A stretch of 64,000 bases of DNA from Diplonema papillatum (lineage: Eukaryota > Euglenozoa > Diplonemea > Diplonemida > Diplonemidae), in NCBI GenBank assembly GCA_030068145.1, contig JAPJBO010000308.1, forward strand, positions 62,001-126,000, in the 5' to 3' direction. Made by a program: the position numbers and the translations under genes. Positions 10,399-62,518 of this stretch are shown here, in pieces. The notes beneath the pieces were generated by a model, which saw only the letters and a list, made by a program, of their open reading frames with translations, made no database searches and was not told where the DNA came from. The number at the start of each line of letters is the position of its first letter. Position 1 is the stretch's first letter.

Positions 10399-10495
10399 CT
10401 ATGTCCATCTCGAGCGCGACGTGCGTGATGGTGTCGTTGTCACCCGAGGCCGCGGCGAAATGGATGGGCATGAAATCCCAGCGATCGGCGTCCTT
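10399..10495 (-). CDS. Ankyrin-repeat exon B
   Basis: The reading KDADRWDFMPIHFAAASGD continues the ankyrin pattern from exon A (DNGGKPRL + KDADRW). The acceptor is AATGCAG before AAG, in phase 0. The 3' end is either at GTATGA (phase 1, given here) or about 14 bases further at GTTGCA (phase 0); I cannot choose. The PIHFAAASGD signature is the classic second-helix region of an ankyrin repeat. Further exons must lie at lower coordinates but were not found. Confidence 0.6.
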
Positions 10496-10792
10496 CTGCA
10501 TTTTTTGTGAGGAGGGAGCGATACATGGGCAACGTTGGGCGGCTTCCACACCGCCAGGTCGAACATTAGGGTTCAAAGATTCTAGCCACAATAGCCACCC
10601 ACACTGCCTTGTGGGTACATGTTGTGGCTGTTCTGACCGCATTGTGGGAAAGTTGTGGGCACAGTGCTGTCGTGAGCTTCGTCGGTGCCTGTCGTTTCCT
10701 TTGGTTTGCTTGCCAAATGCAAGCCCAGGCCGTCCGCCCTGTTGGCGGTAGCTATGCGCGCGAATACTGGAACGTGCTGACAAAGTGCATAC

Positions 10793-10921
10793 CAACCGAG
10801 GCTTACCGCCGTTGTCCAGAATGAACGAGATGACCTTCTTCCAGGCCAACCGGCACGCGTAGTGCAAGATTGTGCGCCCGGTCATGTCGGTGTAGTCAAC
10901 AAGGGGCAGAAGAGCGTTTTT
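10793..10921 (-). CDS. Ankyrin-repeat exon A
   Basis: A 43-codon exon runs from acceptor CACACAG to donor GTATGC, phase 0 at both ends. It reads KNALLPLVDYTDMTGRTILH, then the ankyrin helix pair YACRLAWKKVISFILDNGG. Joined to exon B it gives a continuous ankyrin unit with the expected DNGG-x-P turn. A nearer GTAAGC (at 10806) would break the frame with exon B, so GTATGC is the better donor. The upstream exons of this gene, toward 11 kb and beyond, were not identified. Confidence 0.65.
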
Positions 10922-11254
10922 CTGTGTGGGGAGAGTTTCCGGGCTGAAAGAAAAGAATGTTTTCCGGTTAGTTCTGCGGGGTGGGTGCGGTGTGCCCTGC
11001 TACTTGGACACCATCTCCTGTAGACCTGACAGCGGGCCTATCTGTGCAGGGAGAGCCAGGGTACGCCAGACCCTGAACAGCAGGATCAACAACCCGGCTC
11101 AAGCTTGCTGCCCTATCAAACTTGCAGCTTCCTCCTGATATTCCAGGTCGGGATGTCTTCTTGCTCCGACCTGGAAGGGCTTGACGCGTGTACAGAGATA
11201 ACCCTCTCGTATATAAGTCCCCTGAGGCCAACATGAGTAGCTCAGCCATTTTTA

Positions 11255-11431
11255 GAATTCTTTGTTTGCGCGTGCCGGGTGATCGTTTTCCGCTTGTTCT
11301 TACCGTGTGTCATTTTCAGGTAAGGAATTCTGATCAAACATGCTGCGTCTTTTTAGCCTTTCACGATACATTGAAGAGAGCAACCCGCAAGATTGTTTGA
11401 GATTGATCGTACTAAAAAAGGGCACGCAAAC
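11255..11431 (-). repeat. Dispersed family B copy directly after a splice donor
   Basis: On the minus strand the sequence after the donor runs TTTTTTAGTACGATC, CAAACAATCTTGCGGGTTGC, GGCTAAAAAGACG, then CAGAATTCCTTACCTG. The same order of blocks recurs at 17340-17500, 37075-37115 and 56815-56985, and as a tandem at 16435-16985, all in the same orientation. Confidence 0.75.
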
Positions 11432-14400
11432 CTCTTTTCGCTGTTCGAGGTGGTTGAGCAGGTTCTCGGCGGTGAGCTGAGGGAGGAGCCTCGGGACTTC
11501 CGAGCGGAGCGTCAGCAGCGAGCGGATGGGCGCCTTGGTCTGCTCGACGAAGGGGTGCGCATCGTAGTCGTCGCACTGCAGGAGCAGCTCGGCGATCGAC
11601 CGCCGCATGACCTCTGCCTCCGCGGCGCCGCCGACCTCGTAGGAGAGGGTTGCCTCGCCCACTTCGCGGGACCGACCGTCGGTGGCGAGCAGGAACACGG
11701 TGATGGACTTCTCGTCCGTGCTCTCGGTCAGCGGCGGCGCCTGCAGGAACGCGCAGCTCGGCCCGACCGCAAACGGCCGCGCCTGCTCCGACCAGCCGCC
11801 GCCGCCGCCGTACGGCCAGTCGAACACGAACTTCGTCGCGTCGTTGAACGCGGTCCCGACCACCATCACAAACGCGCCGAACCGCGAGCACGCCTGCGGC
11901 GCGACCATTTTGGTCATCGGCCCCAGCCCGTCTCCCAGCGGTCCCTGCGCGTCCGGAAGCCTCAGGAACCCGGACAGGTCGCAGCGGTTCCAGCTCTTCG
12001 AGAGGAACGCTTTTTCGGGGTCGTAAACCCACTCCTGCATGCGGTCCTGCAGCTTTCCGGTGTCCCCCGCGACGTCGCGCGCGTATCCCGTCGCCTGCAG
12101 ATCCGTTTTGAGGACGAGCCAGACGTCGACGGGCGTGATGCCTTCGATGCAGCCGGCCATCTCGCAGATGCCATCCGCCGCGTCTTCGAGCAGCTTCTTC
12201 TTGTTGACGTTCACGTACCGGCGCCCCGCGTCGGCGGCCGCCGGCCGCTCGGCGGAGAAGGCCCCGTCCTTGAACTTCGGCACGACGATGTGGCCCCAGT
12301 CCGCGAAGTAGCGGAAGCGGCGGATGCGCTCGACGGACAGCAGGTAACGGACCGAGAAGTCCTGCTGCGGCGCGGCCGCCAGCCGCGCCGACGGCGGCGC
12401 AGCCGCGGCCGCCGCGACAAGCTGCGGCGGCGGCGGCGGCGGCGCCGGGTTGACCGGGCCGTACCAACCCTCGGCCAGGTAGCCCTGGCCGCCGTACTCG
12501 TAGCCCTCCCACTCCGCGGGCGCCTCCTCCCACGCCGCCGCCGCCGCCGCGTCCTCGGGCGCCGGGGGCGGCGGCGGGGGCGGCGGCGGCGGCGGCGCGA
12601 CGGCAGGCACCGCGCCGCGCTCGGCCGCGTGCCCGTTGATGAAGGCCGACGGGGGGAGCCCGGCATCCGGCGGCTGCGACGGCTCGACCGCCGCCGTCGG
12701 TTGGGCCGGAAGCGTCGCCGGGCGGGGGGGCGGCACGACGATGCGGTTCTGTACGAATTGCTGGGGTTGCTGCTCCACGGGTTGGTGCTGCTGGTGGTCG
12801 TCGTTGAGATGCTGATGTTGGTGGTAATGGTGCTGGTGTTGTTGTTGGTGGTGCTGGTGCTGGTGTTGGTGCTGGTGCTGGTGTTGATGTTGGTGCTGGT
12901 GTTGATGTTGGTGCTGGTGCTGTTGTTCGTGCTGGTGCTGGTGTTGGTGTTGGTGCTGGTGTTGTTGTTGGTGGTGCTGGTGCTGGTGTTGGTGTTGATG
13001 CTGGTGCTGTTGTTGGTGCTGGTGTTGTTGTTGGTGCTGGTGTTGTTGTTGGTGTTGGTGCTGGTGCTGAGCCAAGTGCTGGTGGTGATGCAGGTGTTGA
13101 TGCTGGTGGTGCCCCGAAGGCATCATGTGAGGTTGGTAGTGTGGCACAACTTGAACCTTTGCGCCCTGCTGCGCTGTTGCACTCGCAGCCAACGGCGCCT
13201 GCTGCTGTGCGCGCCGCGATGCCAGAGCCGCAGCCAAAGAAACTTCGTCCAACCTATTCACCGCGTCGTTCTGCACGCCACCCGGAAGCTTGCCAGCCGC
13301 AGCTGGCTGAGCCCGCTGCGCCGCCAGCGCAGCCGCCCGCGCAGAGACGTCCGACAGGTCGGGCGACATCCCGTTCTTGGCAGCAGCAGCAGCGGCGGCA
13401 GCAGCCGGCAAGCCTGCTTGAGCCTGCGGTGGTCCTGGCTGCGCTGCAGCCAAGGCGGCCGCTGCGGCGCGCGCGGAGATGTCGACGAGCTGCGGTTTGG
13501 GTCCGCCCGCACCCGTTCTGTGGGCAGGCTGCGCCGCCGGCGAGACGCCGCTTCGCGACGCCAAGGCGGCGGCCCGCGCGGAGATATCGTCGAGCTGGGG
13601 ATGCGGTTGGTAAGGTCCAGGAGCCCCTGCTGGCCCTGTTCGGCTCGCAGCGGGTTGCGATGCGATGTTCTGCGACGCCAAGGCCGCGGCGCGCGCGGAG
13701 ATGTCGTCGAGCTGCACCGGATGCGACCGGTAAGGTCCGGGAGCTCCCCCTCGGTTGTCGGCGGGTGCCGCCGAAGCAGCGGCGCGCGCGGAGATGTCGG
13801 CAAGCTGCGGTTTGGGACCACCCGCCCCCGTCCGCTTGTCGGGCTGAGCCGCCGGTGGGGCGCCGCTTCGCGACGCCAAAGCGGCAGCACGCGCGGAGAT
13901 GTCGTCGAGCTGGGGATGCGGCTGGTAAGGTCCAGGACCCCCTGCTGGCCCTGCTCGGTCGGCAGCAGGTTGCGATCCGGTCTGCGACGCCAAAGCAGCG
14001 GCGCGTGCAGATATGTCGTCGAGCTGAGGATGCGATTGGTAAGGTCCAGAAGCCCCTCTGGCAGCGGGTTGCGATGCGGTGTTCTGTGATGCCAAAGCAG
14101 CGGCGCGCACGGAGATGTCGTCGAGCTGAGGATGCGGCTGGTAAGGTCCAAGACCCCCTGGGCCTCCTCGGTTGGCAGCAGGTTGCGATGCGGTGTTCTG
14201 CGACGCCAAAGCTGCGGCGCGCGCGGAGATGTCGACGAGCTGCGGTTTGGGTCCGCCAGCACCCGTTCTGCTGGCAGGCTGCGCCGCCGGCGAGACGCCG
14301 CTTCGCGACGCCAAAGCGGCAGCCCGCGCGGAGATATCGTCGAGCTGAGCCGGATGCGGCGGGAAAGCTGCCGGAGCTCCTGCCCTTGCCCGGCCGCCGG

Positions 14401-15373
14401 CGGGTTGCGCCGGCGGCGGTGCCGCGGCGGCGGCCGGAGCCGGGCCGCGGTACGCTTTCGAGCCGGCCGCCCCGGCCTGGCCGACGGCTGGCGGAGGCGC
14501 CGCCGCAGCTCGCGGCGCCAACGCGGCGGCACGGGCGGACACAGCGTCGAGGTTTGCCGCAATGGGCGGCTGCTGCTGCTGTTGCTGGTGCTGCTGTTGT
14601 TGCTGCTGTTGGTGCTGCTGTTGGTGCAGGTGCTGCTGTTGCTGCTGTTGGTGCTGCTGTTGGTGCTGCTGTTGTTGCTGCTGCAGGTGCTGCTGTTGTT
14701 GCTGCTGGTGCTGCTGTTGTTGCTGCTGTTGTTGCTGCTGGTGCTGCTGCAGGTGCTGCTGTTGGTGCTGCTGCAGGTGCTGCTGTTGTTGCTGCTGTTG
14801 TTGCTGCTGTTGTTGCTGCTGGTGCTGCTGTTGTTGCTGCTGTTGTTGCTGCTGGTGCTGCTGCAGGTGCTGCTGTTGGTGCTGCTGCAGGTGCTGGTGC
14901 TGTTGGTGATGCTGCTGCTGGTGGTGCTGGTGTTGCTTATGCTGCTGCAGTTGCTGCTGGTGCAGTTGCCGCTGTTGCTGTTGCAGCTGCTGCTGTTGCA
15001 GCTGCTGCAAAACGGGCAGCTGCTGCATCTGCTGGGGAAGGTGGTGGTGGAGGTGCTGGTGGTGGTGGTGCGGGCGCCGACCATCCTCGGAGCCGTCGTC
15101 GTCTTCGCTGTCGTCGCTGCCTTCGGACGGGCTGAGCTCCACCGGCGGCTGGCCGCCGCGGAGCAGCGGCCGCGGGCCCGCACCCTTGCCGCCGTTGCCC
15201 GGCGGAGGCAGCCCCACGGCCGGGCGGGGGCCCAGCACGCCCGCCGCGTACGCCATCGCCAGCTGGTGCGGCAGCAGCACCCCCGGCGCCGCGAACGGCG
15301 GCGGCAGGCCGCCGCCCAGCGGCGGCGCGAACCCGCCGCGCCGCGGGGAGGCCGGATGGTTCGGGGTGCTCAT
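11432..15373 (-). CDS. Gln/His-rich protein with twelve LDDISARAAALA motifs, first exon
   Basis: A frame of 1314 codons starts at MSTPNHPASPRRGG and ends at a phase-0 donor (EQRKE, then GTTTGC). Order of parts: Gly/Pro-rich leader; acidic patch (SDDSEDDDGSEDG); Gln/His tract at about residues 100-270; twelve copies of a motif close to QLDDISARAAALAS between about residues 275 and 720, set in Pro/Ala/Gly spacers; a second His/Gln tract; Pro- and Ala-rich linkers; and a C-terminal region of about 330 residues that looks folded (PDAQGPLGD, VFDWPYGGGGGW) but that I do not recognise. The Gln codons mix CAG and CAA, so the tract is not a simple microsatellite. If translation read through the donor it would stop about 43 codons later inside a dispersed repeat, which is why I place an intron there. 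Function unknown; low-complexity tracts plus repeated short motifs suggest a scaffold or RNA-granule protein, which is inference. Confidence 0.8.
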
Positions 15374-15462
15374 TTCAGAAGGCTGCGCGCACCCCTCCTA
15401 CGTACACCTCCCGTCGGCAACGATCCAACCACCTCTCCCCGCTCTTTGTATTTGTGTGTGTG

Positions 15463-15868: not shown

Positions 15869-15869
15869 G

Positions 15870-28190: not shown

Positions 28191-28624
28191 ACCACACTAT
28201 GCCTGCCTAATGCAGATTCTCACCATAGATTTTTTGCATTCTAACCCAAACTATGCCTGCCTTTCGCTGCGTGACACCGGATAGGTCACGCTTCGTCCCT
28301 CTTGGCGCGCTTCCGTCGTGGGAATGCAACTGCTGCTTGTGACAACCTCGTGGTCAGATCCTGACTCGGAGTCCCTCGTTCTCACGCACTTCAATTATTA
28401 TGAACGTACTGCACGGCCATCGTAGCGACGGATATACAGCCACAATGCTGTGGAATAAGCACGAATTGGTCGAATTTAACCTGCAGCACTGCTTTCTGCG
28501 GAAGTACTGATAGTCCTCATGGCTGTTGTGCCCGGTCTCTCGCTTCCGGCGGAGCCGTGTCGGCGGGGTGCGCGATCGTCGACTCCTCGGGTAAATCCAG
28601 CGTGCAAAAGCAGAATCTCACTCA
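28191..28624. other. No gene recognised
   Basis: Nothing beyond short matches to neighbouring repeats. Confidence 0.4.
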
Positions 28625-31680: not shown

Positions 31681-31700
31681 TTTACAACGAAAATGCATAC

Positions 31701-32534: not shown

Positions 32535-35213
32535 CTAAGGAGTGTTTGATGTTGGTTTGACCCGTTGACCCGCAAACCCGGTGGAGCGCATGGGGGAAAG
32601 GGAAAAGAGAATACAACACCTGGGGTTCTCACGTGATCACTCAAACACGGTTTCGGGGAGTTTCGGGGTATTTCCTTTGTGGCGACCACTTTCGGGCTAC
32701 GCTGTTTTGGTCCTACCTTGCGCAGAGCGCCCGTGTTTGGCTATGCCCCGAAGACGAAGATAGAGGCTGAGAAGGAAGGACAGACTGGGAGGTACAGGTT
32801 GACACGGTTTGACACAGGTAGCGACAGGATCCGCTGCGGTAAGGAGAGCAGGAACCGTTCCACCAGAGGTCGTGCAGGTACAGAGACGATGCTCCTGCTC
32901 GAGTCGCAGCTAGGTAGCACGCCTTCAATGCTGAGGTCTGGGGGATGGACGTATTTTCCACGTATGGGGAGGAAAGGATCGGACGTGCTGGTGGTACGCC
33001 TTCGAAGACGGCACCTCCGGCAAGAAGGGGCAGAAGGGGGTAAATTTAGTGGGCAGCGGAGACCCAGCGCATGGAGGTGTGCCCAGGCACACCACCAAGG
33101 ACGAGAGAGTGTGCACGGGACTTTGTTGCATTAGTGTGACACACTCCGTGTCTACGTCACAGCAGATGGAACGCGTTTGTTGCGCCCCCGCGGGCGGGGG
33201 CGGCCTACGAGTGGGTGTCGTTGTGGCCTCCCGGCCGGAGCCATCGTTGGATGACCCCTCGCTCGTTTGCGTTTGCATCGGTTGGCGCGCCGGGTGGACG
33301 CAGCCGGGGGCTGCGTTGCACTGGGCGGCGTTCGCCGGGCCGGGGTGCTGGCCTCACAAAGTGAAATGCGAAGAGTGCAAGCGCCGGCAAGCGTCGGTAG
33401 CGCGCTTCTGCCGAGGCACACCACGCGGCAGGGGACGGCCTCGCCGTGAAGTATTGCGAGAAGCACAGGATGACGCAGTGCGGGACGTGCAAGACGATCG
33501 CGGAATCCTGCAGGAACTCACACCACGGGTGCCTGCAGCACGATATGCCGATGTGCGGAGTCGGCGGCCAGGACAGTGCTGCAAGCGGGGGCTTCATCAC
33601 CGCCGGGTGCTACAGCAACAACCCGAGCACGACCAGCAGAAGAGACGGAAGCGCGGGCCTTCGCCCCCGGGGACGCCCGAAGCGACACCGAAGTCGAGAC
33701 GCAAGCTGCGACCTTCGACCACAAGGGAAGCGGCGGATGCCGGTGCCAACACTGCCGTCGAGAACGCCGCAAAAGGCGACGACACCAGGACGGCCGCTGG
33801 CAACGAAGCGACGGCGTAAGGACTCGCCATCATCGAAGACACAGATGTGCACTCCGCGGCGGGCTGAGGTGCAAGATAAGGTACCAGTGACGAAGAGAGG
33901 TGGCACGAAGAGAAAGTCACGAAAGAGAGCAGATGCAGATTATCGCCACAGGCTCTTTGCATGCTAACCCTATCCACCAGGACCAGGGGCAGTTACGGTC
34001 GAAGACGGCAATTCGAGCGAGGAGTAAGGTTGATAACCAAAATGAGAGGCACGATGGCCATCCTGAAAGCAGGGTTGCAGGATGATGTTTGGCCGAGGAT
34101 AAGATGGCTATGGCGACTGGGACAGAGAGACAACGCAAGATAGAGAGTCCTCCCTATGGGGTAGTCACGCAGCCCCAGGGCCTCCACAAACGGTCGTCGA
34201 CTGACCTTTCCCGAGACGAGTTGGACCATCTTTCCGGAGATTTGCGGTTCCTCCCGTCCTCTACAACTCCCCACATAAGTGAACGTGGACTCCGAAGTGT
34301 GACACTCCTCCCAACCGGTTGCACGAATTCAGACTTCCGGGAGGGTTGGCCGACTGTTTCCGATGCGGCTTCTAATCATCGAAGGCTAACCTCGCGTGCA
34401 AGAGCGGTGCTCGTCGTTCGGGGACCAGATGGGGGAAGACGACTGGGTGTGGTCAGAAGTGGGAAGGTCATCGGGAGATGGCGGGCGTGAATACTTCTTG
34501 CCCAAACCAAAGCCCAAGAGGGAATTGGAGAGTTTGACATAAGAATGGCAAACTCGTGGTACCGAAGGTTGCAACCGCAAACAGAAGAGTCAGATGATGG
34601 TTGAACCTGTGCACATGCACAAGACGCGTCCTGTTCAGACTCCTTCCTGCAGATGCTGCAGGTTTTCCAGCAACTGCTGGTTCGCCTTGAGGCCCTCCGA
34701 ATCCGCAGGCTGCAGGGCTGCAGGGTATGCCTCAACAACTGCCTAGGAGTCCAAGCTACAGTTGGTAGATGCATCCGAGTTCTCTCGCACGGTGTTAATT
34801 AGAAACACCCTGCGAGCTGTCGAGGGTGGCCAAGAAAAAGCCACCGACCTGCCCACCCACCTGTCCACTTTCTTCCACAACAATCGGGCTGAGTATCGGG
34901 GAGTTTCGGGGAAGTGTCGGGGAGTTTCGGGGAACTTACCAGGAGCCCGGACCAGGTGGTCTAAAAACAATCCGTGCCTTCGAGGTGTGAACCTCACGAG
35001 GCTAAACAGCTTGAACATTGAGCTCAGTTTTGAGCTTTGGGCAATGAACGAGCCACCAAAACATGAAGAATCAGTGTTCACTGGCCGGTCAGTTTACGCT
35101 GGCTGCCACGTGGAGCCCACACAAAACACAGGTAACGTTCCGAACGACTGGCTCGGACGCAGGTACAAGCGCCACGCTCCGACTTCTGGTTGAGAGAAGT
35201 GCAAGGGGCAGAC
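32535..35213 (-). other. Intron 1 of the aldehyde dehydrogenase gene (2679 bases)
   Basis: Donor CAG then GTCTGC, acceptor CACTCCTTAG, both phase 0. The intron has no large microsatellite. It contains a plus-strand Cys-containing frame (see 33361-33616) and a short plus-strand heptad-like stretch near 34620-34710 (SFLQMLQVFQQLLVRLEALR) that may be retroelement debris. Near 34890-34935 GGGGAGTTTCGGGGA is repeated three times. Confidence 0.8.
33361..33616 (+). CDS. Possible antisense Cys-rich ORF inside the intron
   Basis: Plus-strand frames read KVKCEECKRRQ and, in another frame, YCEKHRMTQCGTCKTIAESC followed by CLQHDMPMCGVG. The Cys/His spacing looks metal-binding. Because the two parts lie in different frames and no splice sites join them convincingly, this may be a nested gene's exons, a relic, or chance. 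I give it only because it would be the sole gene-like plus-strand content in the window. Confidence 0.22.
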
Positions 35214-35882
35214 CTGAGCGTGCTTCGTCAGAGCCGACGCGAGCGGGATGCCGGGCTCGAGGATCCCGAGGTACTTCTTGTCCACCAAGCACTTGTAGAT
35301 CTGCGCGGTGAAGACGTTGCTCTTCGTGAGGTTGGCATGCCGGGCGTACACAGCGACGCGGGACTCGATGAACATCGAGTGCAAAATGTCGATGGGCGCC
35401 TCGAAGTTCCCGGCGCCGAGGATGCCGATCAGTCCTTTTTGCTCCCTGCACTTTCCTTGCGTCGCGGTCGTGCCGGGCTCGAGCCAGACTTCCGCGCTGA
35501 TGGGGAGGAGGAAGGACTCCATCCACGTCATGGGGTACACTGCGAGCACTTCTTGATCGCCTACTTTTCGGGAGCGGAGCGGCTTGGGGGGTTTGCCCGT
35601 GTTCGCAAGAGATTCGTACGTCGCGATCGTGCTGGTGAGGGTGGCTCCGAACAGCATGCCGGCCGTGGTGTACCCGGACAGGCGCAAGTGGTCGTGCTTG
35701 TCGTTGCCCCGCACGGCGTCCGCCGCCGCCGACCACTCGTCCAGCACCGCCTCCGTCGCGGTGCGGATCTCGTACAGCAGCTGCAGCTTCTCCTTGTCGC
35801 TCAACGCCGCCCACTCGTCTGCCTTCGCAGCGACCTCCTTCACCATATCATCCACGGCACGTTCGGGATCCTGCGTCGCCAT
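35214..35882 (-). CDS. Aldehyde dehydrogenase family, exon 1
   Basis: 223 codons from ATG (MATQDPERAVDDMVKEVA) to a phase-0 donor. The N-terminal helical part is followed by GLIGILGAGNFEAPIDILHS, the nucleotide-binding loop (GAGN) of the acyl-CoA reductase-like aldehyde dehydrogenases, then RVAVYARHANLTKSN and GILEPGIPLASALTKHAQ. No targeting signal is evident, so cytosolic action is likely. The open frame extends upstream into a decayed copy of the same 5' end, but the start used here follows the 5'-motif at 35885-35905 by 2 bases and is shared by the copies. Three partial copies of this exon's first about 210 bases lie upstream at 36.0-36.8 kb. Confidence 0.88.
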
Positions 35883-35999
35883 TTCCAGAGTTAAAGTTTT
35901 GCTTGAAGAAGAAAGCGCCGGTGTCCTGTTGGCGGGTGTGTGTGTGTGTATGTGTTTGCCTACAAAGTGAGTATTTGCTTGTTGAACGCTTACGCCCGT

Positions 36000-37502: not shown

Positions 37503-37908
37503 GCGCACTACTTCGTAAGGGGACTGCGCGCGACTTATAACGCGCGGAAGAGCGAGCCAATAGCAGGTCTGTGATGCTCCTAAATGTCATCACAGACCTG
37601 CTATTGGCTCGCTCTTCCGCGCGCTATCTGCGTGGGACTGCAACTGCTCCATCTGCGCCATGAAGGCGAACACGCACATTGTCGTCCCCGACGCGATGTT
37701 CACGCTGGGAGTTGAGCATCTAAAAGTGACAGGAACCTGAAAAGCAAAAACGACCCAACACTGTACAATTTCTAGCCCACCCCCTTGTACCCAGGCTCCG
37801 ACACGACCTTACCAAGGACCCCACCCCGCTTCGCATGTCAATCAGAGATTGCAACTACAAGCTTCTGAACATAGTCGCGCGCAGTCCCCTTAAGAAGTCG
37901 TGCGCGTC
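37503..37908. mobile_element. Nested inverted-repeat element
   Basis: Outer arms of about 29 bases (CGCACTACTTCGTAAGGGGA at the left; near-exact complement at 37877-37908) enclose an exact 36-base hairpin stem (37541-37576 and 37588-37623) with an 11-base loop. The 250 bases right of the hairpin are unique. The structure resembles a small foldback or MITE-like element; no transposase frame is present. Confidence 0.65.
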
Positions 37909-38875
37909 TCGGGTAAGCAGCAAGCCGCCGATGCCAAAAGACACCCCCTACAACGACACGCCCACCTATTTGAGGGTCGAGATCTCGTTCGTTAACGGAA
38001 TCAACCTGACAAATCACTCCACCAACCAGGAGCGGCCATGCACACCACACAATTCATCGAGAAAGAGCTCTCAAACTGTCAATCCTTGCTTGCGACGCAG
38101 TCGGTACCGTCCTGGGCCCTTGCCTTCTTGCGGGAATCATGAATCAAGCGACATTCCGCTGGTGCCGATTAGCTCAGCATTCCCAAACTGAGCGACTCGT
38201 GCTAGCAAGGAGTTAACCAACATGGCTCGTCGAGGATATACGGGACTCTCACCCTCTGTGGATACCTCATTCCAGGAGACTTACCTCGACGCCAGTTGTG
38301 TCTCCAAGCAGCTTGCGCCACATTCCGGATATCCGTAGAACACCGGTTCAGGCTTGGGCTCTGCCCTGTTCACCCCCAAACTCGGTCCCAAATCTGGTAC
38401 TCAACTATCTGGTGGCTCGATTGGTTCCAAACACAACGAAGGCAAAAAAGATACCGCGAAAAAAAAAAAAGAAGAAAACGCGTAGGAGCGAGAAGAACAG
38501 CAGGAAAACTAATCAAAGGGGACGCGCGTGTCCCAAGACACCTCGGAGTGTGCCTTCTCGTCTTCCCACCCGGGCGAAGGGGCAAGGGGCATGTGGGAAC
38601 ATAGTGCGGCTCGTGTGAAAACAAAGTCGTGTTTCAAGAAGAAACATACACATATATGGTCTGCCACACAGGGCCCATTTCCGAAGTGATTCCGAATTGA
38701 TTCCACTCTCCAAAACACAAGGGGTGCAGACAGTCGCTTTTCGGTGGGCTGGGATGTGCACCCCGGACCCCTGCACGTATTACCCCATTTCCGAAGTGAT
38801 TCCGAAGTGATTCCACCCCTTTTGTGGCAGACCAATATAGCAAGCTTGCTCGAGCGCCTCGCCGAACATGTCCAA
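37909..38875. other. No gene recognised; repeat E copy
   Basis: 38012-38092 matches 29266-29330. CATTTCCGAAGTGATTCCGA occurs at 38669 and 38789, each part of a short direct repeat. An A/G-rich run is at 38450-38490. No gene. Confidence 0.5.
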
Positions 38876-41337: not shown

Positions 41338-42436
41338 AGGGGTTCTTCTCCACTTCCGGGGCCACAGGCGAGGGCACGTGCCATCGATCCTGCCGATTTC
41401 GCTTTCCGCGTCTGTGCTGCAGAGAGGCACTGTCGTTGAGCAGCACACGTGTGTAGCTTTGGGCTGGCGGCGCCTCCATCGCTTCGTGGTGATGCGGTTC
41501 CCCCCCCCGTGAAGCTAGCGGTGCAGGTCGGAGGATCGAGGCTACACCGGGCATCGCGCGAGACAGGGGGTGCTAACGCCACGCGGCGGGTCAGATGACG
41601 TTCGACGTGTCGGACTGTGTAGGTTGAGGCGTTCGGTGCGGACTTCGGATAATGTGCGGAACCCCCAGCCAAAAGGAAGGATACCCAAAAGGTCGAAACG
41701 AAAGACACCAGACTGCACAGCAACCTCGGTTGATGGTCGGCAAACACTAAGGTCCGGTCATGACAAGCCCCCTGCTTCGGGGGAAGCACGGGGGATGTGG
41801 CGTTTTGCTCCGAAATTCTCCGAAACATGGTCACACTCTGGATCGTGCGTAACGAATTGCTCGGGATTCAGTCGGTTCGGTGTCTAGCCTCCACAATCGT
41901 CAGAACCTATCCGCGGTGCTAAAGCATGGGCTAATGATTCCTGGTCCTCGCTTCAATCGTTGAAAGGGTGACGATAATACTCTCCGCCACAGATGCCTCC
42001 CGCAAGCCTGAAGTTGTGCTGAACACTAGTGCCTGACCCAATATCGTTTAGCGTTTTTTTTTTTTTTTTTCAAATGGAGCATTAAATAGGGGGGTGTTGA
42101 ATAATAACAGTATTTGACACACGCCTAGCTGCCGATCTCTTTGTTATTATTCGACCCCTCCCTCTAACTTACAACTGGCTTTTGCTGTGGTTCGTTGTCG
42201 TCGATAGAGTCATCGATCCTCGTCGCCCCACACACCGCAGAACAGAAGAAAAAAGGACAGAAGTTGGACAGGATTCAGTCGGTTCAGTGTGCGGGTGGTC
42301 ATGTCAGAACACTGCTCACCCGTATGAGTGTGAACCATACGCATAAGTCTAACACTCCTAATTGTTTTAGCACTTTTCGCGTGGGGCATTGACTGCAATG
42401 GCCAAGCTTCACTCCTGACTTTTTCCGTGGGCACAC
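41338..42436. other. No gene recognised; TVP23 downstream region
   Basis: A T-run is at 42054-42070. The last exon or 3' end of the TVP23 gene is expected here or in 42210-42430 but is not clear. Confidence 0.4.
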
Positions 42437-42709: not shown

Positions 42710-42717
42710 CTGAGTGT

Positions 42718-43120
42718 GGGTGTTAAGTTCAGGGCTTTGAGTGGGTAACGTCTGAATCGAAGTATAGCCCACTTGTCACTTTCACCAGTCGGCTTTGAGT
42801 TTCCGACACGCTGCTTTTGTGTCCTGCGACTCCTCTCCGAAGGGTGGGTGGGGCGGGATCCTTCGGGGGACGGATAGAGCGTGGGGGGCTGTCAGCTTCT
42901 CCATCCGGCACTCGGCTCAAGACTTCTGTTTTCATCTTGCGGTGTTAGCTGCACGGGTTCTATGGCCCCGTGCACCAGCTGAGTGTCTTTACACAGGCGG
43001 CACACCTCCGAGGATGTGGCAAGCTCTCTCTGTGCAATGAGCTTGGCCTGACTAGCTGTTCCAAACTCCTGGTGCAAGCGCCCGTCATGGTCAGCAGTCG
43101 CCACCTGGGTCACGGTTTTG
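42718..43120. repeat. Dispersed family D, copy 2
   Basis: Nearly identical to 15463-15868. It begins nine bases from the TVP23 exon 3 acceptor, inside intron 2. Confidence 0.85.
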
Positions 43121-43885
43121 AGTCCCCGCGGGCCACCACACCCACACGTAGTCGGCAGTTCAATTCCTCCCCGAGATCCTTTGTGGGGGTTTTTAGAGTG
43201 AAAGTTCGCTTGAAACTCCGGGGGGTTATAGTCTCCGGGTGACCTTCGTCGTTATCGAAAGATATCCTTTGTGCTCTGAGTGTCGTAAGAATTGTGGTTA
43301 CACGAGGTAAGAGGATCGGTGGGTACCTTTGTTGTTGGTCATTGGTGGTTTCGGCCAATGTTCACATTACCTTACTTACGGTAGGCCCTTCTCAGTATGG
43401 TGCCGCAGTAGGTGGTTGTTGGTCTTTTGAAACAGCCCCGACCTCTTGTCCATCAGCACGCCAGGTTTTGGTCCATCCACAAACAAAAGAACTTCCAAGA
43501 TTTTGACCCAAAACGGGCTAGCTTTTTAGACGGAAAAGGTGTGGAATGGGTGACATGCTTGTCTCGACAAACCATGTGTACATAAAATACTCGACGTAGC
43601 TGCTTCGACTCCGAATGGAAGGGGGGAAATATAGAGGTAAGGGGCAAATACAATACAAACACAATCTGATTTGTTCTTCGCTTACACCACCGTGTGTTGT
43701 TTTCTCACTCAGGACTTTTGACCTGTTGTGTTTGTGCGTGTAGGGGTAGACCCGCATGACCTCACGTCCGTTCAACACGTGGTTCGGTAGTTACAGCACT
43801 TTGGATCCCTTCTGTTCTTTGTCGGGCAGCCTCGTCGAGCATTTCCTTTCAAGCTGGCGCTTATGTAACAAAATAAGTGGCATAC

Positions 43886-44161: not shown

Positions 44162-44942
<781 letters not shown>

Positions 44943-45236
44943 TGCTAAGGACCAGTATTAATGTGGTGCTTCCCTTCACGGAAGTACGACCACTCTTGTG
45001 TGCGTTTGTGTGTGTAAGCGTGTAAGTATAGCCGCAAGCTCTCTCTCTCTCCCTCTGCACAAAGCTTGGTCTGGCTAACTCCTATTCCCGAAGCTGTGCA
45101 GGAGACAACCTTCTTCACGGGCGCGCTGCAACCAAAACGTGTGCAAATGTATAAGCGTGACATTTGCTAACACCAGTTTTCACTTCAATGGTTTAGGGTA
45201 TTCGTTTCAAAAGAGGCTAGGGAGGGGGATGCATAC

Positions 45237-48770: not shown

Positions 48771-50613
48771 TACGTTTTTCGTACTTTTTTGAAACAGTAC
48801 AAAATTAGTATGGCGCTTCCGTTTGTTTGTGCGCACTAGCGGCTTTTCACCTGATTTGGTGATACGCTGCCGACTACTAATTTTTAGTACCAACAATGCA
48901 TTGTTGACACAGTAAAAGGTCAGACGGCCGTCTGACACGGACCGAGTCAGGAAAAAGTACGAAAAAAGTCAGACGGGTTTCCCGTTGGGTATTCCTGGTC
49001 CGGGGCTGTGTGAAGGTTAGCCAGGGTTCGTTGGCGAGCTCGCCAAAGATACATGAGCGTTGGCGAAATTTGGCGAACTCTGGCGAACTAAGCCAAAGAA
49101 CGTTGAGAGTTTGTCGAAAACGATGGAGCACAAGTTTCCGCCACACATGCAGCAAATAGGTCGTGGGGGTAGACGGCTCCTAATGGTGAGCACCGAAGAA
49201 ATTCCCGTGTAGTGTCGCGTGAAGAGTCTGCCGTCAACCACTGGTCGACCACTCGTTTTACGAGTGGTCGCCTTTGGGGACGCGCACGGCGGGATACCCA
49301 CCTCTCGAGGGCACGGAGTTACCGCGCGACGACACGAAACCGCAAGAGGGGACAGCGCCCAGCACCGCTGTACCATTCCCGTGTTATTGAACAAGCTGCA
49401 CCACAGCCTTCGGGCGGTAGACAGCTCACTGGGTTTGTGGGTGTTCGTTGTGGATCCAGTGTGTCTCTCGCGTGGCTGAGTGTGCAACCACAACTGTTCA
49501 CTTCGTACATGGGTCGAAGTTGCGGCGTGACATAAGCGGTGCACTGCGCTTTCAAGCCCGCTGTAGCAGCTCGCATCACGAATTTACTACTCATTTCAGA
49601 GCTCCGGACTCGACGGCACTCAGACTCAGAGTCAGTGGGTGGTGCTTTCCGCGAACTCTCTGCTCAAAATAGGTTGGCGCCTTCTCAGGGAACCGATAGC
49701 GCACACCAGTGGCGAAGGTCGCCTGAACCACTGCGAAACAAGCTTACGAGGGATCAACAGTACGCAGCCTTCGTGACCGGTTTGGAACACCTTTTCCGAT
49801 AAGTGCGCGCGTTGGTGTCTGCAATATCTGCTTCTTTTTGCTGGTTCCTTCTCTTTGGAGAGGTGCGACGCTGCCACTTCGGCCGTGCTCCCGAACCGGC
49901 GACGGGAAATGTGGCGGGAATAATTGAGTTGCAGCTCTTGACAAAGATAGATGGAAAAAAGAAGGTGTTTTTATTCTTCGCTTTTTCTCACGAGCGGGGG
50001 GGTCGGTCCTGCTTTTGGCTTTGTAGGTTCTCCCGACTCCCCAATTCGTGGTCAGCACAAACTCAAGAGGTCTAGTCAACTATTCCCTGCAGTATTGGCA
50101 TACTTTCAAAAAGAATTGTAGAAGCGGGCTCGAGACCCCAGTACCTTCCTCGAGTTTTAGTCCGTTCCAGTCACATTGCCCGGGTTTTTCCTATTCACTT
50201 TCTCGGGGTTTCAGCCCATCCCGTGCCAAGAGTTTTGTGGCCACCCACTGGGCCTAGGCCCGGAGGTGGACTCTGGATGAGAACAGCAATGGATGTGCAC
50301 TGCGCTGGTCACCTCTTCGTTCATCACCCAAGTGAACCCAGAAAAACAACCGGAAATAACCCACAAAAATCAACGGACGGCTCGTCGCACTTTTTTCGTT
50401 GGCTTCGTTTTCTCTTTCATGTGCAACCGTTGTTCCGGAAATGTTCCCGTCAGTACAGATGTACTATTAAGAAATAAATCGGTCCGAGTCGGTCTTGAGT
50501 CAGACCGACTGCGAAGTATGAAAGCAGGTGCCAAAACAAAAACAACGAAGGGGGCCTGTCTTTTTCCTGGGGTTTCCTGGGGTTTCCATTGCAATAGGAA
50601 GAAGTCCTCATAC
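48771..50613. other. No gene recognised; repeat I copy
   Basis: 48810-48920 (GTTTGTGCGCACTAGCGGC, CCAACAATGCATTGTTG) matches 56690-56800. GGCGAACTTTGGCGAA-like short tandem text is at 49030-49095. Two copies of CCTGGGGTTTCC lie at about 50566-50588. No gene. Confidence 0.5.
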
Positions 50614-51663
50614 CTGAGCTTCTTCGACGACGGAGGCGAGGCGGAGGCACGTCGCGGTGACGACGGCTTCGAGGGTCGACGCGATCGAGTCCAGCGGAGA
50701 CTCGGCCTCGCGCGGGTGCAGCGAGTCGATTTTGAGCGACACCATCAGCCTGAGCCAGTCGCCGAGGGCAACCTCCGGCGCCGACGGCAGCCCCGCGGCG
50801 GCGGCGACCAGGCCGAAGACAACCGGCAGCACCTTCCGGTGCACGGCCTGCCGCACCGCCGCCGCCGGTGGGTCGCCCAGGGCCACGTACCGCAGCACGC
50901 CGAAGTCGGTGTCCCGCAGGTACCCGACGAAGGCGGGGGAGCCCAGCTTTTCGGCCACGCGCCCCGCCAATTCGAGCAGTGCGGCCGAGCTCAGCAGCGT
51001 AGACACCTCGAGTGCACCGCCCGGATGGCACCGGGAGACGGCGTGTAGCCATGCGGCGACGTACGCCGTGCGCTGCGCGGGGGAGAGGCCGCACGCGACG
51101 CTGTTATGGAAGAACGACATACCCGCGGCGCCGAGTGCGTCGGACGGGCCAGGCCGGTCGGTCCACTTTGGGACCAGGCGGCGGAGGGCCGCGTCTCGGC
51201 ACGAGGACAGCCTGTCGGAGATTGCGGTCCACGTTTCGGAGACGGAGGGGGTCGGGTCGACGGGCTGCATGCCGCGCAGGCTTTCAACCTCGGCTTCGAT
51301 GGCTGCGGCGCACGACGCCGGGTGGGTCAGCTCCGTGGGGATGATCTTGCACGCGTTCGGCGGCTCCGTGCAGAGTGTGTACGATCGGGTCTCGGCGAGC
51401 GAGCTCCACTTCGCCAACGCGTGGTTGCACTGCGCCGGGATAGCAACGCCTTCCAGCCGGACCTCGCGCAGGCACACGCTGTCCGCGACGCCTTCGGCGA
51501 GCGCAGCCCACTGCAAGCTCGACAGCCGGGCCCGGCTCAGCGCCAGCGACCGCACCTCGCCCCGCCGCAGCCGCCGCGCGAGCACCGAGACGTCCCTTCC
51601 CTTCACGAACCCGTCCGCGAAGCTCGCGCTGCCGCCCCCAGGCTCGCAGCCCCGCGGCGCCAT
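50614..51663 (-). CDS. LRR-like protein, first exon
   Basis: 350 codons from MAPRGCEPGGGSASFADGF to a phase-0 donor (EEAQ then GTATGA). Residues about 30-75 have a leucine-rich-repeat rhythm (VRSLALSRARLSSLQ, CLREVRLEGV). The rest is helical and Ala/Leu-rich (LLSSAALLELAGRVAEKLGS, VLPVVFGLVAAAAGLP) and is not recognised. The donor places an in-frame TGA at once if unspliced. Partial copies of the first about 100 codons and of the 5' flank lie at 52.0-53.4 kb and, flank only, at 56.0 kb. Confidence 0.7.
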
Positions 51664-51717
51664 TTTGTTGAAAAAACGGATCTGGCGCTTCCTTTGTTTG
51701 TGCGCACTTACTTGTTG

Positions 51718-51925
51718 AATAAAAACGGTGTTTAATGGGGCATCGGAGGGCCCGGAGTTTTCCTGTGTTGTCGTGTGTTGGGTTGTAACGTTGCGCAAGA
51801 TGAGGTGGTCTCCTGCAAGCACTACATGCCATGCTACATAATACACTCTACAGAGTTCTGTGTGTACACAGAGTTCTGAAGTGTCTAGCTACGTCCAGTG
51901 GATGTAGCTGGATGGTACAACCACC
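51718..51925. repeat. Repeat K, copy 1 (5' flank of the LRR-like gene)
   Basis: AACGGTGTTTAATGGGGCAT, GAGGGCCCGGAGTTTTCCTG and the imperfect palindrome ACAGAGTTCTGTGTGTACAC recur at 52215-52480, 52803-53075 and 55990-56190. Confidence 0.85.
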
Positions 51926-52024
51926 CGCTAGCACATGTCCCCCCTCCTGATTGGCCACCGGCCCGTTCGGTGCATTCCGAATCCGCTTCGGGCAACGAGC
52001 TCGTCATGAGCTACGGCGGGTGTC

Positions 52025-53407
52025 GCGAGGTGTCGCGACGCCTTCGGCGAGCGCAGCCCACTGCAAGCTCGACAGCCGGGCCCGGCTCAGCGCCAGCGAC
52101 CGCACCTCGCCCCGCCGCAGCCGCCGCGCGAGCACCGAGACGTCCCTGCCTTTCACGAACCCGTCCGCGAAGCTCGCGCTGCCGCCCCCCGGCTCGCAGC
52201 CCGCGGCGCCATTTTGTTGTGTGAAAACGGTGTTTAACGGGGCATCGGAGGGCCCGGACTTTTCCTGTGCTGTCATGTGTTGGGTTGTAAAGTTGCAGAT
52301 GAGCTGGCCTGTACCTCCTGCGAGCACCACATGTTATGCTACATAGTACACTCTACAGAGCTCTGTGCATACACAGAGTTCCTACGATTCATCGTGGGAA
52401 TGTTTCAGCGGAACGACCAAACAGCAGATCATTGGGGTTTTAGCAACACAAAGTCTAAAATTAGCTACGTCCAGTGGATGGCTGGCGCTGAGCCGGGCCG
52501 GCTGTCGAGCTTGCAGTGGGCTGCGCTCGCCGAAGGCGTCGCGGACAGCGTGTGCCTGCGCGAGGTCCGGCTGGAAGGCGTCGCGACACCCGCCGAAGCT
52601 CGTGACGAGCTCGTAGCCCGAAACGGATTCGGAATGCACCGGGCAGGCCGGCGGTCAATCAGGAGGGGGGACATGTGCTAGCGGGTGGTTGTACCATTCA
52701 GCAGACCGCACCTCGCCCCGCCGCAGCCGCCGCGCGAGCACCGAGACGTCCCTGCCTTTCACGAACCCGTCCGCAAAGCTCGCGCCCCGCGGCGCCATTT
52801 TGTTGTGTGAAAACGGTGTTTGACGGGGCATCGGAGGGCCCGGACTTTTCCTGTGCTGTCATGTGTTGGGTTGTAAAGTTGCAGATGAGCTGGCCTGTAC
52901 CTCCTGCGAGCACCACATGTTATGCTACATAGTACACTCTACAGAGCTCTGTGCATACACAGAGTTCCTACGATTCATCGTGGGAATGTTTCAGCGTAAC
53001 GACCAAACAGCAGATCATTGGGGTTTTAGCAACACAAAGTCTAAAATTAGCTACGTCCAGTGGATGCTGCTGAATGGTACAACCACCCGCTAGCACATGT
53101 CCCCCCTCCTGATTGACCGCCGGCCTGCCCGGTGCATTCCGAATCCGTTTCGGGCTACGAGCTCGTCACGAGCTTCGGCGGGTGTCGCGACGCCTTCCAG
53201 CCGGACCTCGCGCAGGCACACGCTGTCCGCGACGCCTTCGGCGAGCGCAGCCCACTGCAAGCTCGACAGCCGGGCCCGGCTCAGCGCCAGCGACCGCACG
53301 TCGCCCCGCCGCAGCCGCCGCGCGAGCACCGAGACGTCCCTTCCCTTAACGAACCCGTCCGCGAAGCTCGCGCTGCCGCCCCCCGGCTCGCAGCCCCGCG
53401 GCGCCAT
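52025..53407. pseudogene. Cluster of partial copies of the LRR-like gene 5' end
   Basis: Minus-strand copies: 52025-52213 (one base lost just after the start, so frameshifted), 52697-52797 (short) and 53090-53407 (open for 105 codons from MAPRGCEPG, then a stop). A plus-strand, inverted piece sits at 52490-52680 (RLSSLQWAALAEGVADSVCL). Repeat K flanks separate them. The end of the 53 kb copy and the inverted piece share RNGFGMHRAGRRSIRRGDMC, which is absent from the main gene, so they derive from each other by an inversion-linked event. Confidence 0.85.
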
Positions 53408-56796: not shown

Positions 56797-56814
56797 ATAG
56801 TACCAACAAGTGTT

Positions 56815-56988: not shown

Positions 56989-56989
56989 C

Positions 56990-57245: not shown

Positions 57246-57285
57246 CTGGGGGAAGCGACAACAAAGGCCAGGGTATGCTGAACGT

Positions 57286-57415: not shown

Positions 57416-57431
57416 CACGTACAATATGGTA

Positions 57432-58656: not shown

Positions 58657-60503
58657 TCTCATATGGTACCGGCACGGACGCGGCGACCGTCGCCTGGCGT
58701 GGGGCGCCGCGGCTTCGGCGGTTCGCATCTGCCGGTGAAGGTTGCAACGCGGCGCGTTTGACTGGGCTCTGGAGGAGGGCCGCAGGCGGCACAAACAACA
58801 TTTCCTGCCTTTTTCTGGCCCCAAGCAGCGCCGAGCCTCGCCAGAATCATCCAGGGGCAACTGAAGAGTTTCCCATGCCCCTTCGTAAGCCGGTCTATCC
58901 CCTTCTGATAGACTGTGATGTACCGCGAAGTGAACCGTGAAACACAGCTCCCCGCCAGGCAATTCTATGCAGCTCCAGGAGATAGGATGGGCCTGATGAC
59001 GAGCCGTGATGTTTGAAGTTAGAACGCAGAGTATCTGCAGCGATGCCGCGATAGGTAACGCAGTTCCAAGGAACCCAGATGGTTGCACACGCGGCGGGGC
59101 AGTTTTTCACTGGCAAACGGGTGGTGGCCGGCGGCTCCCTGCGTAATTTGCAAGCACCGCGAGACCCCCCTCGTTCGTTCCGGAGTTCTTTCGTTTCCTC
59201 TCTCGTGTTCCCGGCATTGGTTTCTGGTTTTATCCCTCGTGGTATTCCGCTCACGTTTTCCCGCACAACGGCGCGTAGACGAATTCTCCAAGTTTGCTGA
59301 GGGAATTCTGCAAGCAGAGTTGAACAACAGAGTGGACCGGCTACACTGCGTGTGGTAGTTCGACCTATTCGGCCAGACAGCAACACCTTGCGCCAGGAGT
59401 CCTGAGGCGGCGAGTGGTAAGGTTGTTGTCTCCATCAAAAACAGGTGTATTGGTATGCTGGCGCCGTCACGGTGCAGCTGCGCCGCTTCTTCCGGACAAC
59501 CACTGGCTGGCTGATGGTTCACCGAGGGTGGGGACGTATGCCTACCACACACGATGGTACTGCCGTGGGACCGGACGCTAGCACCTGTTGGCTATGACGT
59601 GGACACCATCCTACCTTCTGTCTATGGCGACGTTAAAAGCTGCCAGAGGCTGACCCGGCATACAGCTCGTTGCGTCACCATCGTGGCTCATGAGCTCCTG
59701 CGATGGGAGGTGGGAAAGAGGATCCCGAGACTCGGGCTTCTTCCTCTCAACCGACTTTGCATTCGCAGTTTTTAGGCACTCCTGGAGCCGGATCACTGAA
59801 CTCCCCGCCAGCGACACTATTCAGACACATGATTGAAGTCTTGCCGTCCATGTTCAAGGTCGTCCACTGGTCATCCGATCCAAATCGAGCCTGTGAGGTG
59901 TGCGAGCATGAAAAGTAAGACCGCAAAAAGCGGCAGCCTGAACTTCAGGTTGCGCGTACACCGGCGAGTCGAACTCAGCTGGACTCAGCAGACAACTACC
60001 GGCTGCACTGCAGCATTCACGCAAAAATGCGAACCCGAAGTTGGCCCACAATTTGGACCGGTTGATCGTGTTCCTGCTTGCTTGTGAATTCTGAAGGCCC
60101 CGAAAGAACACGCTCCACCCGGCGTTTTATGTTTCCGACGATCCCGTGGGACGTGTCTTTCGACCTTTTGTTTGTTTTGTGAGGTTTTTAGAGTTAAAGT
60201 TCGCTTGAAATTCCGGGGGTTTAGGGTGTCCGTGTGACCGTTCATGAATGGGTTCTCTTTTAAGCCTTCGCACTACATTTGCAGAAGGCACCCCGCAAAT
60301 ATGCGAACCCAAAAGAACTGCGAAAACGGGGTTTTGCCTCTATGGAGACATTTCGTGTTATTCTGCAGATGCTTTGAGCTATCTTTGTGTCTATGCTTTC
60401 AGTCGTCTTCTTAACCATGGTTAAGTGCACAAGGATGTCAGCCGAAGCTGACGAAGCTTTGGCTGACACCATTTGACCGGCTCGAACAAACAGGATGGCA
60501 CAC
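58657..60503. other. No certain gene; repeat F and family C copies at right
   Basis: Minus frames between 58600 and 59110 (NCVTYRGIAADTLRSNF, YLLELHRIAWRGAVFHGSLR) may be retroelement debris. Repeat F lies at 60130-60187 and the 5'-motif at 60185-60207. Neither gives a gene that I can support. Confidence 0.35.
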
Positions 60504-60798
60504 CTCGGTGGTGCATTTGCACTCGGAGTTTTCATCGGCGCACTCGACCCAGCGCGGGCCTTTCGGCACCGCCGGGGGAGGCGTCGGCTTGAGCTTCGGC
60601 GGCTCGGCAATCGTTTCGACAGACGGCGACTCCTTCGCCTCCCATCTTTTGTCCAGCTTCAGCTCGCCGAACGAGGCGAGGTGGTGCCGCAGCCATCGCT
60701 CCATCCAGTCCCCGCAGCGGTCCCATTGGTGGACCACTGCTGCCGTGCGTCCCTTCTTGTCCATGATCATCTGATTCGAATCGAAGTCCAGCAGATCC
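60504..60798 (-). CDS. Exon of a protein with a WxxCAxExxxCxC motif
   Basis: The exon ends at a phase-0 donor GTGTGC. Acceptor either CAAAGCAG (phase 2, given) or CGAATCAG 30 bases on (phase 0, then MIMDKKGRTA). It reads VVHQWDRCGDWMERWLRHHL, a Pro/Lys linker and RWVECADENSECKCTTE. The last part resembles the start of a short Cys motif (W-x-x-CA-x-E-x-x-x-C-x-C) repeated in many algal and oomycete extracellular proteins. The other exons were not found. Confidence 0.45.
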
Positions 60799-61924
60799 CT
60801 GCTTTGTGTTTTGGATGCATACGCAACGGACACGGGTTCGTACTAATACTCTGAATACGCACCTTCTTTACTTGGATGAAAGTCCGCTTAGAAACTACCC
60901 AACAGGCCTATGTCTAGGTAGGGTGAGATTGAAGAACTTGCCTAAACGGTTGTGTTGGGGCCCTTTACATGAAGCGGACCATCATCAGCGCGGAACCTGG
61001 CTGGAGACAGGGCAGCGGTGTGAGTACTTATGTTTGCGCACGCGTAGAGAAAGGCGGTGGATGCGTGCGTGTGCAAAGAGTGCCTTGGGTATGTTTGGTT
61101 ATGTTCTACGCGGTTCGGCCTAGTAGGGTAAGTATGCTCTCTCGAGGCAATGGCCGTTCATGTTGGTCTGTGCCAGCTGCGACAAGTATGCATATCATCT
61201 TGGCCATCATGCTCGCGGAAAGAAAGAGAGAGACGGGTTAGAGTGCCGGGGACCACCTCTTCACCACTTCCTCTCGTACTTCTACGGTGGCTGCAAGTCG
61301 TTCCGTCGGAGGCGTGTTGCGGCGTGCGATATTTACGAAAGAAATGCGTAGTTTTGTTTTATTCTTAGAAGAATGTGGATCATATCTTTTGCCGGTAGAT
61401 CGACTTCAGGACCGCAAAGGAAACGGAACTGCTAAAACGAAGCCACACCTCAAGCCCCTCTTCCCGTTGTTCGTGGTGCACGCCCCTCCAATGGTCAATA
61501 CCGGACCGTCGCCGTATGGTACTGTCGTGACATTCATCAGCCCGCTCCAAATGAGGTAATTCATCTGTATTTCGTTGTTTGTCATCATCAATCGCGAGAT
61601 CTTTCAGTACTCGTCTTCGACAGGCGCACTAAAGAACGGAAGGGAAAGACAGAGTACACGACACGCTTGCTGGGCTACTGGGTTTTAACTGTATTCCGTG
61701 TGATCAGATGTTACGTGTGTTCACAACATGTTGTGCCCCATGTTGCATAACATGTGAAACATCCTAGTCCATAAAGAAACTTGCTTGGAATGGTAGGCTC
61801 GAGCTTGTCTTATCTGTCACCTCCGACGGACACTTAGGTCGGATCAGCATTATTTTCTTCACTGCGGTGGTGTGCGCACTCTGTTTTCGTCTCGGGTTCA
61901 GATCTCATAATATTTTTGTGTGAG
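60799..61924. other. No gene recognised
   Basis: A diverged form of the 5'-motif is at 60877-60898. Nothing else supported. Confidence 0.4.
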
Positions 61925-62185
61925 CACCTGCTTTGTAGGAAATACTTGAGGAGACTGCCAGTTGCGAAATCTCAACAGGTGTGGTACTCATCAGCATGCT
62001 GATGACTCCTCACTATCGCAACAATATTCCAAGTCTCAAAGCAGGCAAATGTGTTGTAGCCCACACGAAACACAGGTAAATCTGGGTTTAGTGGCGGGCG
62101 TAAGCGTTCAACAAAAAAAGACCCGCTTTGTGACCCTGTAGCCTCCTTCGAATTGAATGCACAAGGCGGTCCGTCAAGTATTTCG
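61925..62185 (-). repeat. Dispersed family A, full copy, minus orientation
   Basis: Reverse complement of the 28.6 and 46.0 kb copies, extended by GAATATTGTTGCGATAGTG and the AGCATGCTGATGAG palindrome-like text also found at 28.15 kb. It lies in the intron right after the 62.2 kb exon. Confidence 0.8.
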
Positions 62186-62236
62186 TTCGTCGGTTCCGAA
62201 GAAGGGAAGCGGGGGGGTTGTAAGCAAAGGGCAAAC

Positions 62237-62518
62237 CATTGGCTGGTCGGGAAGGACGGGCGGCACGCAGCTCGGGCCCTTTTTGCCGTTCGCAATCATC
62301 TCGTCAATGAACTCGTTGAGCATGCGGATGGAGCCGGCGCGATTGCCGAGGATTTGGCCGGCGCAGAGCATAGGCTTGCTCTTGTACTTTTTCCACGCCG
62401 CGTCCCCGTAGCACTTGGTCGCCAACCTGCAGAACCAGTGCGTGCAGTCGATGCCGCGCATCTTGCCTCTTTCGATCGTCTTCTCCGTATCGCCGTAGTA
62501 TTCCTCGTACACAAAAAC
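62237..62518 (-). CDS. Exon of a possible glycosyltransferase-like protein
   Basis: 94 codons, phase 0 at both ends, acceptor GGCAGTCAG and donor GTTTGC. It reads VFVYEEYYGDTEKTIERGKM, CTHWFCRLATKCYGDAAWKK and MLCAGQILGNRAGSIRMLNE. The (I/M)LCAG-x(2)-G-x-R/TAG-x(3)-MLN/RYL core resembles a motif in nucleotide-sugar glycosyltransferase-like proteins of algae. That is memory of a pattern, not a search. The flanking exons are not seen within the window. Confidence 0.55.

Follow-up and report, generated by a model that had tools for sequence, protein, structure and literature searches.

Splice donors, the U1 5′ end and intron phase in the diplonemid Diplonema papillatum

The textbook splice donor is GTAAG, and the donors of Diplonema papillatum, a marine single-celled flagellate of the diplonemids, mostly read GTATG. 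A preliminary description of a 64,000-nucleotide stretch of its genome (positions 62,001 to 126,000 of contig JAPJBO010000308.1; hereafter the window) listed ten donors of the form GTNTGC, with T at +4 and C at +6, all cutting in phase 0, and offered two explanations: an altered U1 snRNA or a mechanism of intron gain with a fixed insertion context. Which parts of this pattern hold among introns placed independently of the motif, and what would recognize such a donor?

Introns and the donor consensus

Each of the ten hexamers can be read at its stated position on the minus strand of the window, nine as GTNTGC and one as GTATGA. The introns and putative donors to which they belong are as follows.

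44162..45236, minus strand: TVP23 intron 1, donor GTATGC at 45236, acceptor CAG, phase 0
42710..43885, minus strand: TVP23 intron 2, donor GTATGC at 43885, acceptor CAG, phase 0
42431..42436, minus strand: putative donor GTGTGC at the end of TVP23 exon 3, phase 0, 3′ of the conserved domain; frame and codon bias
32535..35213, minus strand: aldehyde dehydrogenase-like (ALDH) intron, donor GTCTGC at 35213, acceptor TAG, phase 0
31695..31700, minus strand: putative second ALDH donor GTATGC, phase 0; donor-side homology
10496..10792, minus strand: ankyrin-repeat gene intron, donor GTATGC at 10792, acceptor CAG, phase 0
11426..11431, minus strand: putative donor GTTTGC at the end of a glutamine-rich ORF (11303-15397), phase 0; frame and codon bias
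50608..50613, minus strand: putative donor GTATGA at the end of an ORF (50611-51888), phase 0; frame and codon bias
60498..60503, minus strand: putative donor GTGTGC, phase 0; frame and codon bias
62231..62236, minus strand: putative donor GTTTGC, phase 0; frame and codon bias

The preliminary description presented these donors as placed by protein homology or frame continuity. Homology on both sides of the intron is found at 45236, 43885 and 35213 and, more weakly, at 10792; at 31700 it lies on the donor side only, and the donors at 11431, 42436, 50613, 60503 and 62236 follow from the upstream frame and codon bias only. TVP23 intron 1 is flanked by positions 2-39 (upstream) and 34-138 (downstream) of the Pfam family DUF846, and the spliced TVP23 protein matches positions 2-139 of the 139 in this family. 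The Pfam Aldedh match of the spliced ALDH protein runs through the junction, which is also gapless in a weak alignment (E 0.004) with a betaine aldehyde dehydrogenase. For the ankyrin-repeat gene, Pfam Ank matches lie in an open frame spanning both flanks, which is weaker than the other two-sided cases of the window.

Several further features of the window were recorded. A lone piece of eukaryotic 18S rRNA lies on the minus strand at 37580-38092 (positions 1229-1476 of the model, 116 bits); scattered pieces have reportedly been published for 28S rRNA, whereas this one is 18S. A 323-base unit that includes the 5′ coding part of the ALDH gene is repeated about three times at 35663-36705. A tandem gene-part repeat of the same kind occupies 50611-53407, where upstream copies of the 5′ coding part of the gene that ends at 50613 lie at 52034-52210, 52706-52798 and 53159-53407. 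Tandem copies of gene parts have been described for D. papillatum (PMC10161547).

The minus strand of the window shows no enrichment of the hexamer GTNTGC, with 71 occurrences observed and about 79 expected from first-order Markov resampling (20 samples); in the same resampling, GTATGC occurs 16 times compared with about nine expected. The motif alone is thus no evidence for an intron, and we therefore placed introns by protein homology, ignoring the motif, in the window and in 200 kb of a different contig of the same genome assembly (C16:300001-500000, loci L009-L028), together with locus L004. This placement by homology gave 14 introns with homology on both sides (hereafter two-sided) from eight genes, four of them in the window and ten outside. 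The donors outside the window are the following.

Rab5 introns 1-3: GTATGT phase 0, GTATGT phase 0, GTATGG phase 2; two-sided
Rab5 intron 4: GTATGC phase 1; upstream homology only
Thioredoxin-like introns: GTATGC phase 0, GTACAC phase 0; two-sided
Apyrase introns: GTTTGC phase 0, GTGTGT phase 0, GTACGC phase 0; two-sided
SDHA intron: GTATGG phase 0; two-sided
UPF1-like intron 1: GTACGT phase 1; two-sided
UPF1-like second donor: GTATGC phase 2; upstream homology only
FKBP donor: GTGTGC phase 0; upstream homology only

Junctions were checked by Pfam matches and by aligning the spliced proteins to solved structures, and those of the introns outside the window are gapless in these alignments. At seven junctions we enumerated all GT, GC and AT donors with AG acceptors (AC as well for AT) within 24 bases; although no donor motif was favoured, at all seven the called pair came first among 24 to 58 candidates, in phase 0 six times and in phase 2 once. 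The weakest two-sided calls are thioredoxin-like intron 2, which relies on a distant domain match, the ALDH junction, where similarity is weak, and the junction of the ankyrin-repeat gene, which relies on domain matches in its flanks. The first SDHA exon was located by a search with protein motifs; FKBP exon 2, Rab5 exon 5 and the last ALDH exon were not found in searches of this kind.

All 14 two-sided introns start with GT and end with AG, GC and AT donors having been permitted as well at the seven enumerated junctions. Eleven have a GTNTG donor. The base at +3 is A in 11 of 14; that at +4 is T in 11, C in three and never A, T being present in seven of the ten introns outside the window; that at +5 is G in 13 and A in one. 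With G at −1 in 12 of 14, the introns conform as a consensus to the diplonemid G/GTATG pattern (G at −1 followed by a GTATG donor), the exceptions at +4 and +5 being the three donors with C and the one with A. The proposal that +4 is T therefore holds as a rule. The accompanying statement that +6 is C goes too far: the base is C in eight introns, T in four and G in two (C 4, T 4 and G 2 outside the window), and the full GTNTGC is present in six of the 14 donors and in two of the ten outside. Any GTNTG on the gene strand of C16 is followed by C in 33% and T in 27% of cases (n = 755); on both strands of all 264 kb the shares are 22% and 47% (n = 3,070), that of T being inflated by GT repeats. 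Outside the window, C at +6 is not clearly preferred.

A scan of the ends of coding runs outside the window found GTNTG at 19 of 140 GT sites, well above the 4 of 265 in coding interiors and modestly above the 47 of 511 in downstream sequence; we count this as weak support only. Gene finding from codon usage only, with self-trained donor signals, diverged and merged genes, with 14 high-scoring introns on the C16 gene strand compared with 22 on the control strand, and was excluded from the counts.

Could the pattern have arisen by picking GTNTGC words at codon boundaries among the many available? Such a selection would bear only on the fixed C at +6 and the strict phase 0, and for these it is a possible but rather doubtful account. 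It would fit the lack of GTNTGC enrichment in the window, the lack of downstream homology for six of the ten window donors and, outside the window, the low share of GTNTGC and the mixed phases of the two-sided introns. However, T at +4 and G at +5 hold in introns chosen independently by homology, U1 carries a matching change, and when the ends of coding runs in the window were scanned without reference to the list, GTNTG was in phase 0 at ten of ten sites.

U1, U6 and the pairing of the donor

An Rfam search of the genome (271.4 Mb in 2,910 contigs) found four U1 genes, three above the cut-off and one just below it. All four start with GTACATACCTG, compared with AUACUUACCUG in the consensus of the Rfam U1 family: in their 5′ end, GUACAUACCUG, an A replaces the U at position 5, which faces donor position +4. 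The search scored 42 of 4822 candidates, and the genome may hold a second, divergent U1 elsewhere. The usual U1 5′ end, ATACTTACCTG, is present at 25 places in the genome versus 23 for the reversed control, and none of the eight ATACTTACCTG places checked is a U1 gene at the Rfam cut-off. An altered U1 was thus correctly anticipated in the preliminary description, which pointed to the U1 5′ end as the site of a compensating change: one letter has changed there, opposite +4, and the C at +6 is left without explanation.

Since the U1 letter opposite +4 is A, the unusual donor would be recognizable by ordinary base pairing. The mean pairing energy of U1 with the 14 two-sided donors is −8.11 kcal/mol with A at position 5 versus −5.96 kcal/mol with U, and the genomic U1 end pairs more strongly than the version with U in 11 donors, equally in two and more weakly in one. 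A hypothetical G at this position gives a slightly better mean (−8.58 kcal/mol) because it serves the three donors with C at +4, yet A is the stronger in 11 of the 14. Opposite +6, U1 retains the ordinary A even though G would improve the mean to −10.54; the C at +6 is therefore not compensated.

The ACAGAG box of U6 is unchanged in the best copies and fits U at +4, G at +5 and U at +6. The recognition that these sequences suggest starts from a cis donor consensus of G|GTATG followed mostly by a pyrimidine, whose +4 U and +5 G would pair first with the U1 starting GUACAUACCUG, A being opposite +4, and next with the unchanged U6 box; we infer that U1 and the donors pair in this way inside the cell. 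As read from sequence, U1 and U6 would account for +4 and +5; at +6 both call for U, and a C there would be accounted for by neither of them.

Genes for U1, U2, U4, U5 and U6 snRNAs are all present in the genome. Those for U1, U5 and U4 lie within about 1 kb of each other (loci L029 and L031; L032 overlaps L029).

Intron phase and repeats within introns

Phase 0, said to be universal in the preliminary description, is indeed that of all four two-sided introns of the window. It is found in eight of the ten outside and thus in 12 of 14 overall, the exceptions being Rab5 intron 3 (phase 2) and UPF1-like intron 1 (phase 1). The three one-sided donors outside the window are divided among phases 0, 1 and 2, bringing phase 0 there to nine of 13. 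In the scan of coding-run ends, GTNTG sites are in phase 0 in ten of ten cases in the window and in ten of 19 in C16.

In 24,990 bases of coding runs from this genome, the phase-0 expectation is 46% for G|G, 61% for AG|G and 76% for AG|GT contexts, and the introns themselves lie in G|G in nine of 14 cases and in AG|G in five. Twelve of 14 in phase 0 gives a binomial P of about 0.05 against 61% and about 0.003 against 46%; the corresponding values for eight of ten outside the window are about 0.18 and 0.03. Our reading, to which we attach a probability of about 0.9 as a whole, is one of ordinary U2-type spliceosomal introns in a diplonemid, with a G|GTATG donor, a U1 with A opposite +4 and no fixed phase, the majority in phase 0 being roughly that expected from G|G or AG|G contexts and the codon usage of this genome. 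A moderate true excess of phase 0 is possible.

A genuinely strong phase-0 bias in the lineage (more than 75%), stemming from intron gain at AG|GT proto-splice sites, is unlikely, somewhat more so than the selection of motif words discussed above. It would suit the 12 of 14 introns in phase 0 and the 76% of coding AG|GT sites in this phase. However, AG before the donor together with G after the acceptor is found in just five of 14 introns, the sample is small and takes four of its members from the list of the preliminary description, and the share outside the window falls to nine of 13 once one-sided donors are added. A literature search on diplonemids and intron phase found no paper.

A fixed insertion mechanism, the second explanation originally offered, is not borne out: phases are mixed, the exon bases preceding the donor differ from intron to intron, and no end-to-end relationship links the 11 introns compared. 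Its most concrete form, in which mobile-element copies (introners) bring their own GTNTGC donor and insert at a fixed codon position, is very improbable: a repeat of about 300 bases common to Rab5 intron 2 and TVP23 intron 2 does start 10 to 14 bases past the donor, and a repeat of a different family begins in apyrase intron 2 at about +16 to +20, but GTNTG precedes the repeat within 20 bases in only three of the 19 copies listed (the three in introns), some copies are oriented opposite to the genes, the repeats open with a run of T that resembles the tail of an antisense retroposon, no two of the 11 introns match end to end, and phases and exon contexts differ. From the comparison of these 11 introns with the window and the sampled loci, we took the shared pieces to be dispersed repeats and rejected introners.

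In three of the 11 introns, an antisense retroposon-like repeat begins no more than about 20 bases past the donor (the 43885 region of the window, that is TVP23 intron 2, where the repeat runs from about +14, and C16 local positions 28421 and 196823), a closeness that may be due to chance. Finally, the nonconventional introns of euglenids, which lack GT-AG borders, were considered and set aside, all 14 two-sided introns being GT-AG.

The diplonemid host and known systems

Saccharomyces cerevisiae introns also have U at +4 and G at +5 (GUAUGU), but in yeast the U1 base that faces +4 is still the usual U, whereas U1 is changed here.

The host is recognizable as a diplonemid from its spliced leader and from a repeat unit that joins it to 5S rRNA and U2. 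A query that we take to be the end of the diplonemid leader matches 882 places in the genome with at most three mismatches, compared with nine for the reversed control. For U2, 27 of 46 scored matches lie on one contig, mostly about 1,240 bases apart. On contig C66, U2, 5S rRNA and the spliced leader share one repeat unit. In the one SL RNA gene read, the donor is GTACTT, unlike the cis consensus. At seven places read (L033-L038 and L039), no SL RNA gene follows the leader; the sequence after it is of other kinds, often coding-like, and resembles reinserted copies of trans-spliced mRNA; such leader-bearing copies are arranged in tandem on contig C91 with a period of 1994.

The available text on the genome of D. 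papillatum, now placed in Paradiplonema (PMC10161547), agrees with these features, describing a genome of about 280 Mb, mostly GT-AG introns, tandem gene-part copies and an SL-5S-U2 unit with up to 27 in a row, which is called exceptional and is apparently absent in other diplonemids. Neither a donor consensus nor a U1 sequence or intron phase is given in the parts consulted.

The closest match to the introns themselves is found among Diplonemidae, whose cis introns share GT-AG borders, a GTATG donor, CAG acceptors and the presence of spliceosomal snRNAs (PMC12621601). In that study, the bases that occur most often at the donors of L. lanifica, D. japonicum and R. humris are (G)/GTATG, only G/GT is shown for the diplonemid S. 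specki, and the intron logos of P. papillatum are stated to agree with an earlier annotation; its main text, as far as available, gives no logo letters for P. papillatum, no U1 letter opposite +4 and no treatment of intron phase.

In the conventional introns of Euglena gracilis, the donor is GTGTG and all five bases are paired to U1, with one G-U pair (PMC11170887). Euglena thus shares T at +4, a donor paired with U1 and a cis consensus unlike the donor of the spliced leader, but it has G at +3, where A predominates here. From the pairing of all five bases, we infer that Euglena U1 also has a U-pairing base opposite +4. A paper on trypanosome U1 (PMC4041458) gives, in the part available, no U1 5′ end for comparison, and a search for literature on altered U1 letters returned no title on U1 among the matches listed.

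Given the published GTATG of Diplonemidae and the U1-paired GTGTG of Euglena, the trait is real but already described, and it is less unusual than first assumed because T at +4 has been published for both. A reading of the sequence without other information thus recovered a genuine, lineage-specific donor consensus and rightly foresaw the matching U1 change, whereas its fixed C at +6 and fixed phase 0 are overstatements that would have implied a new mode of intron gain. The GTATG donor is essentially a known euglenozoan trait, to which the present analysis adds the explicit U1 sequence, namely A as the letter opposite +4 in this genome. We tentatively suggest, with somewhat less than even confidence, that U1 and the cis donor underwent a joint change in the ancestor shared by euglenids and diplonemids: a single U-to-A change would have occurred in the near-invariant U1 5′ end, U at +4 would have spread through tens of thousands of introns, and +6 would have drifted away from U without any change in U1. 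If this is true, Euglenozoa would be a natural test of the coevolution of U1 and splice donors.
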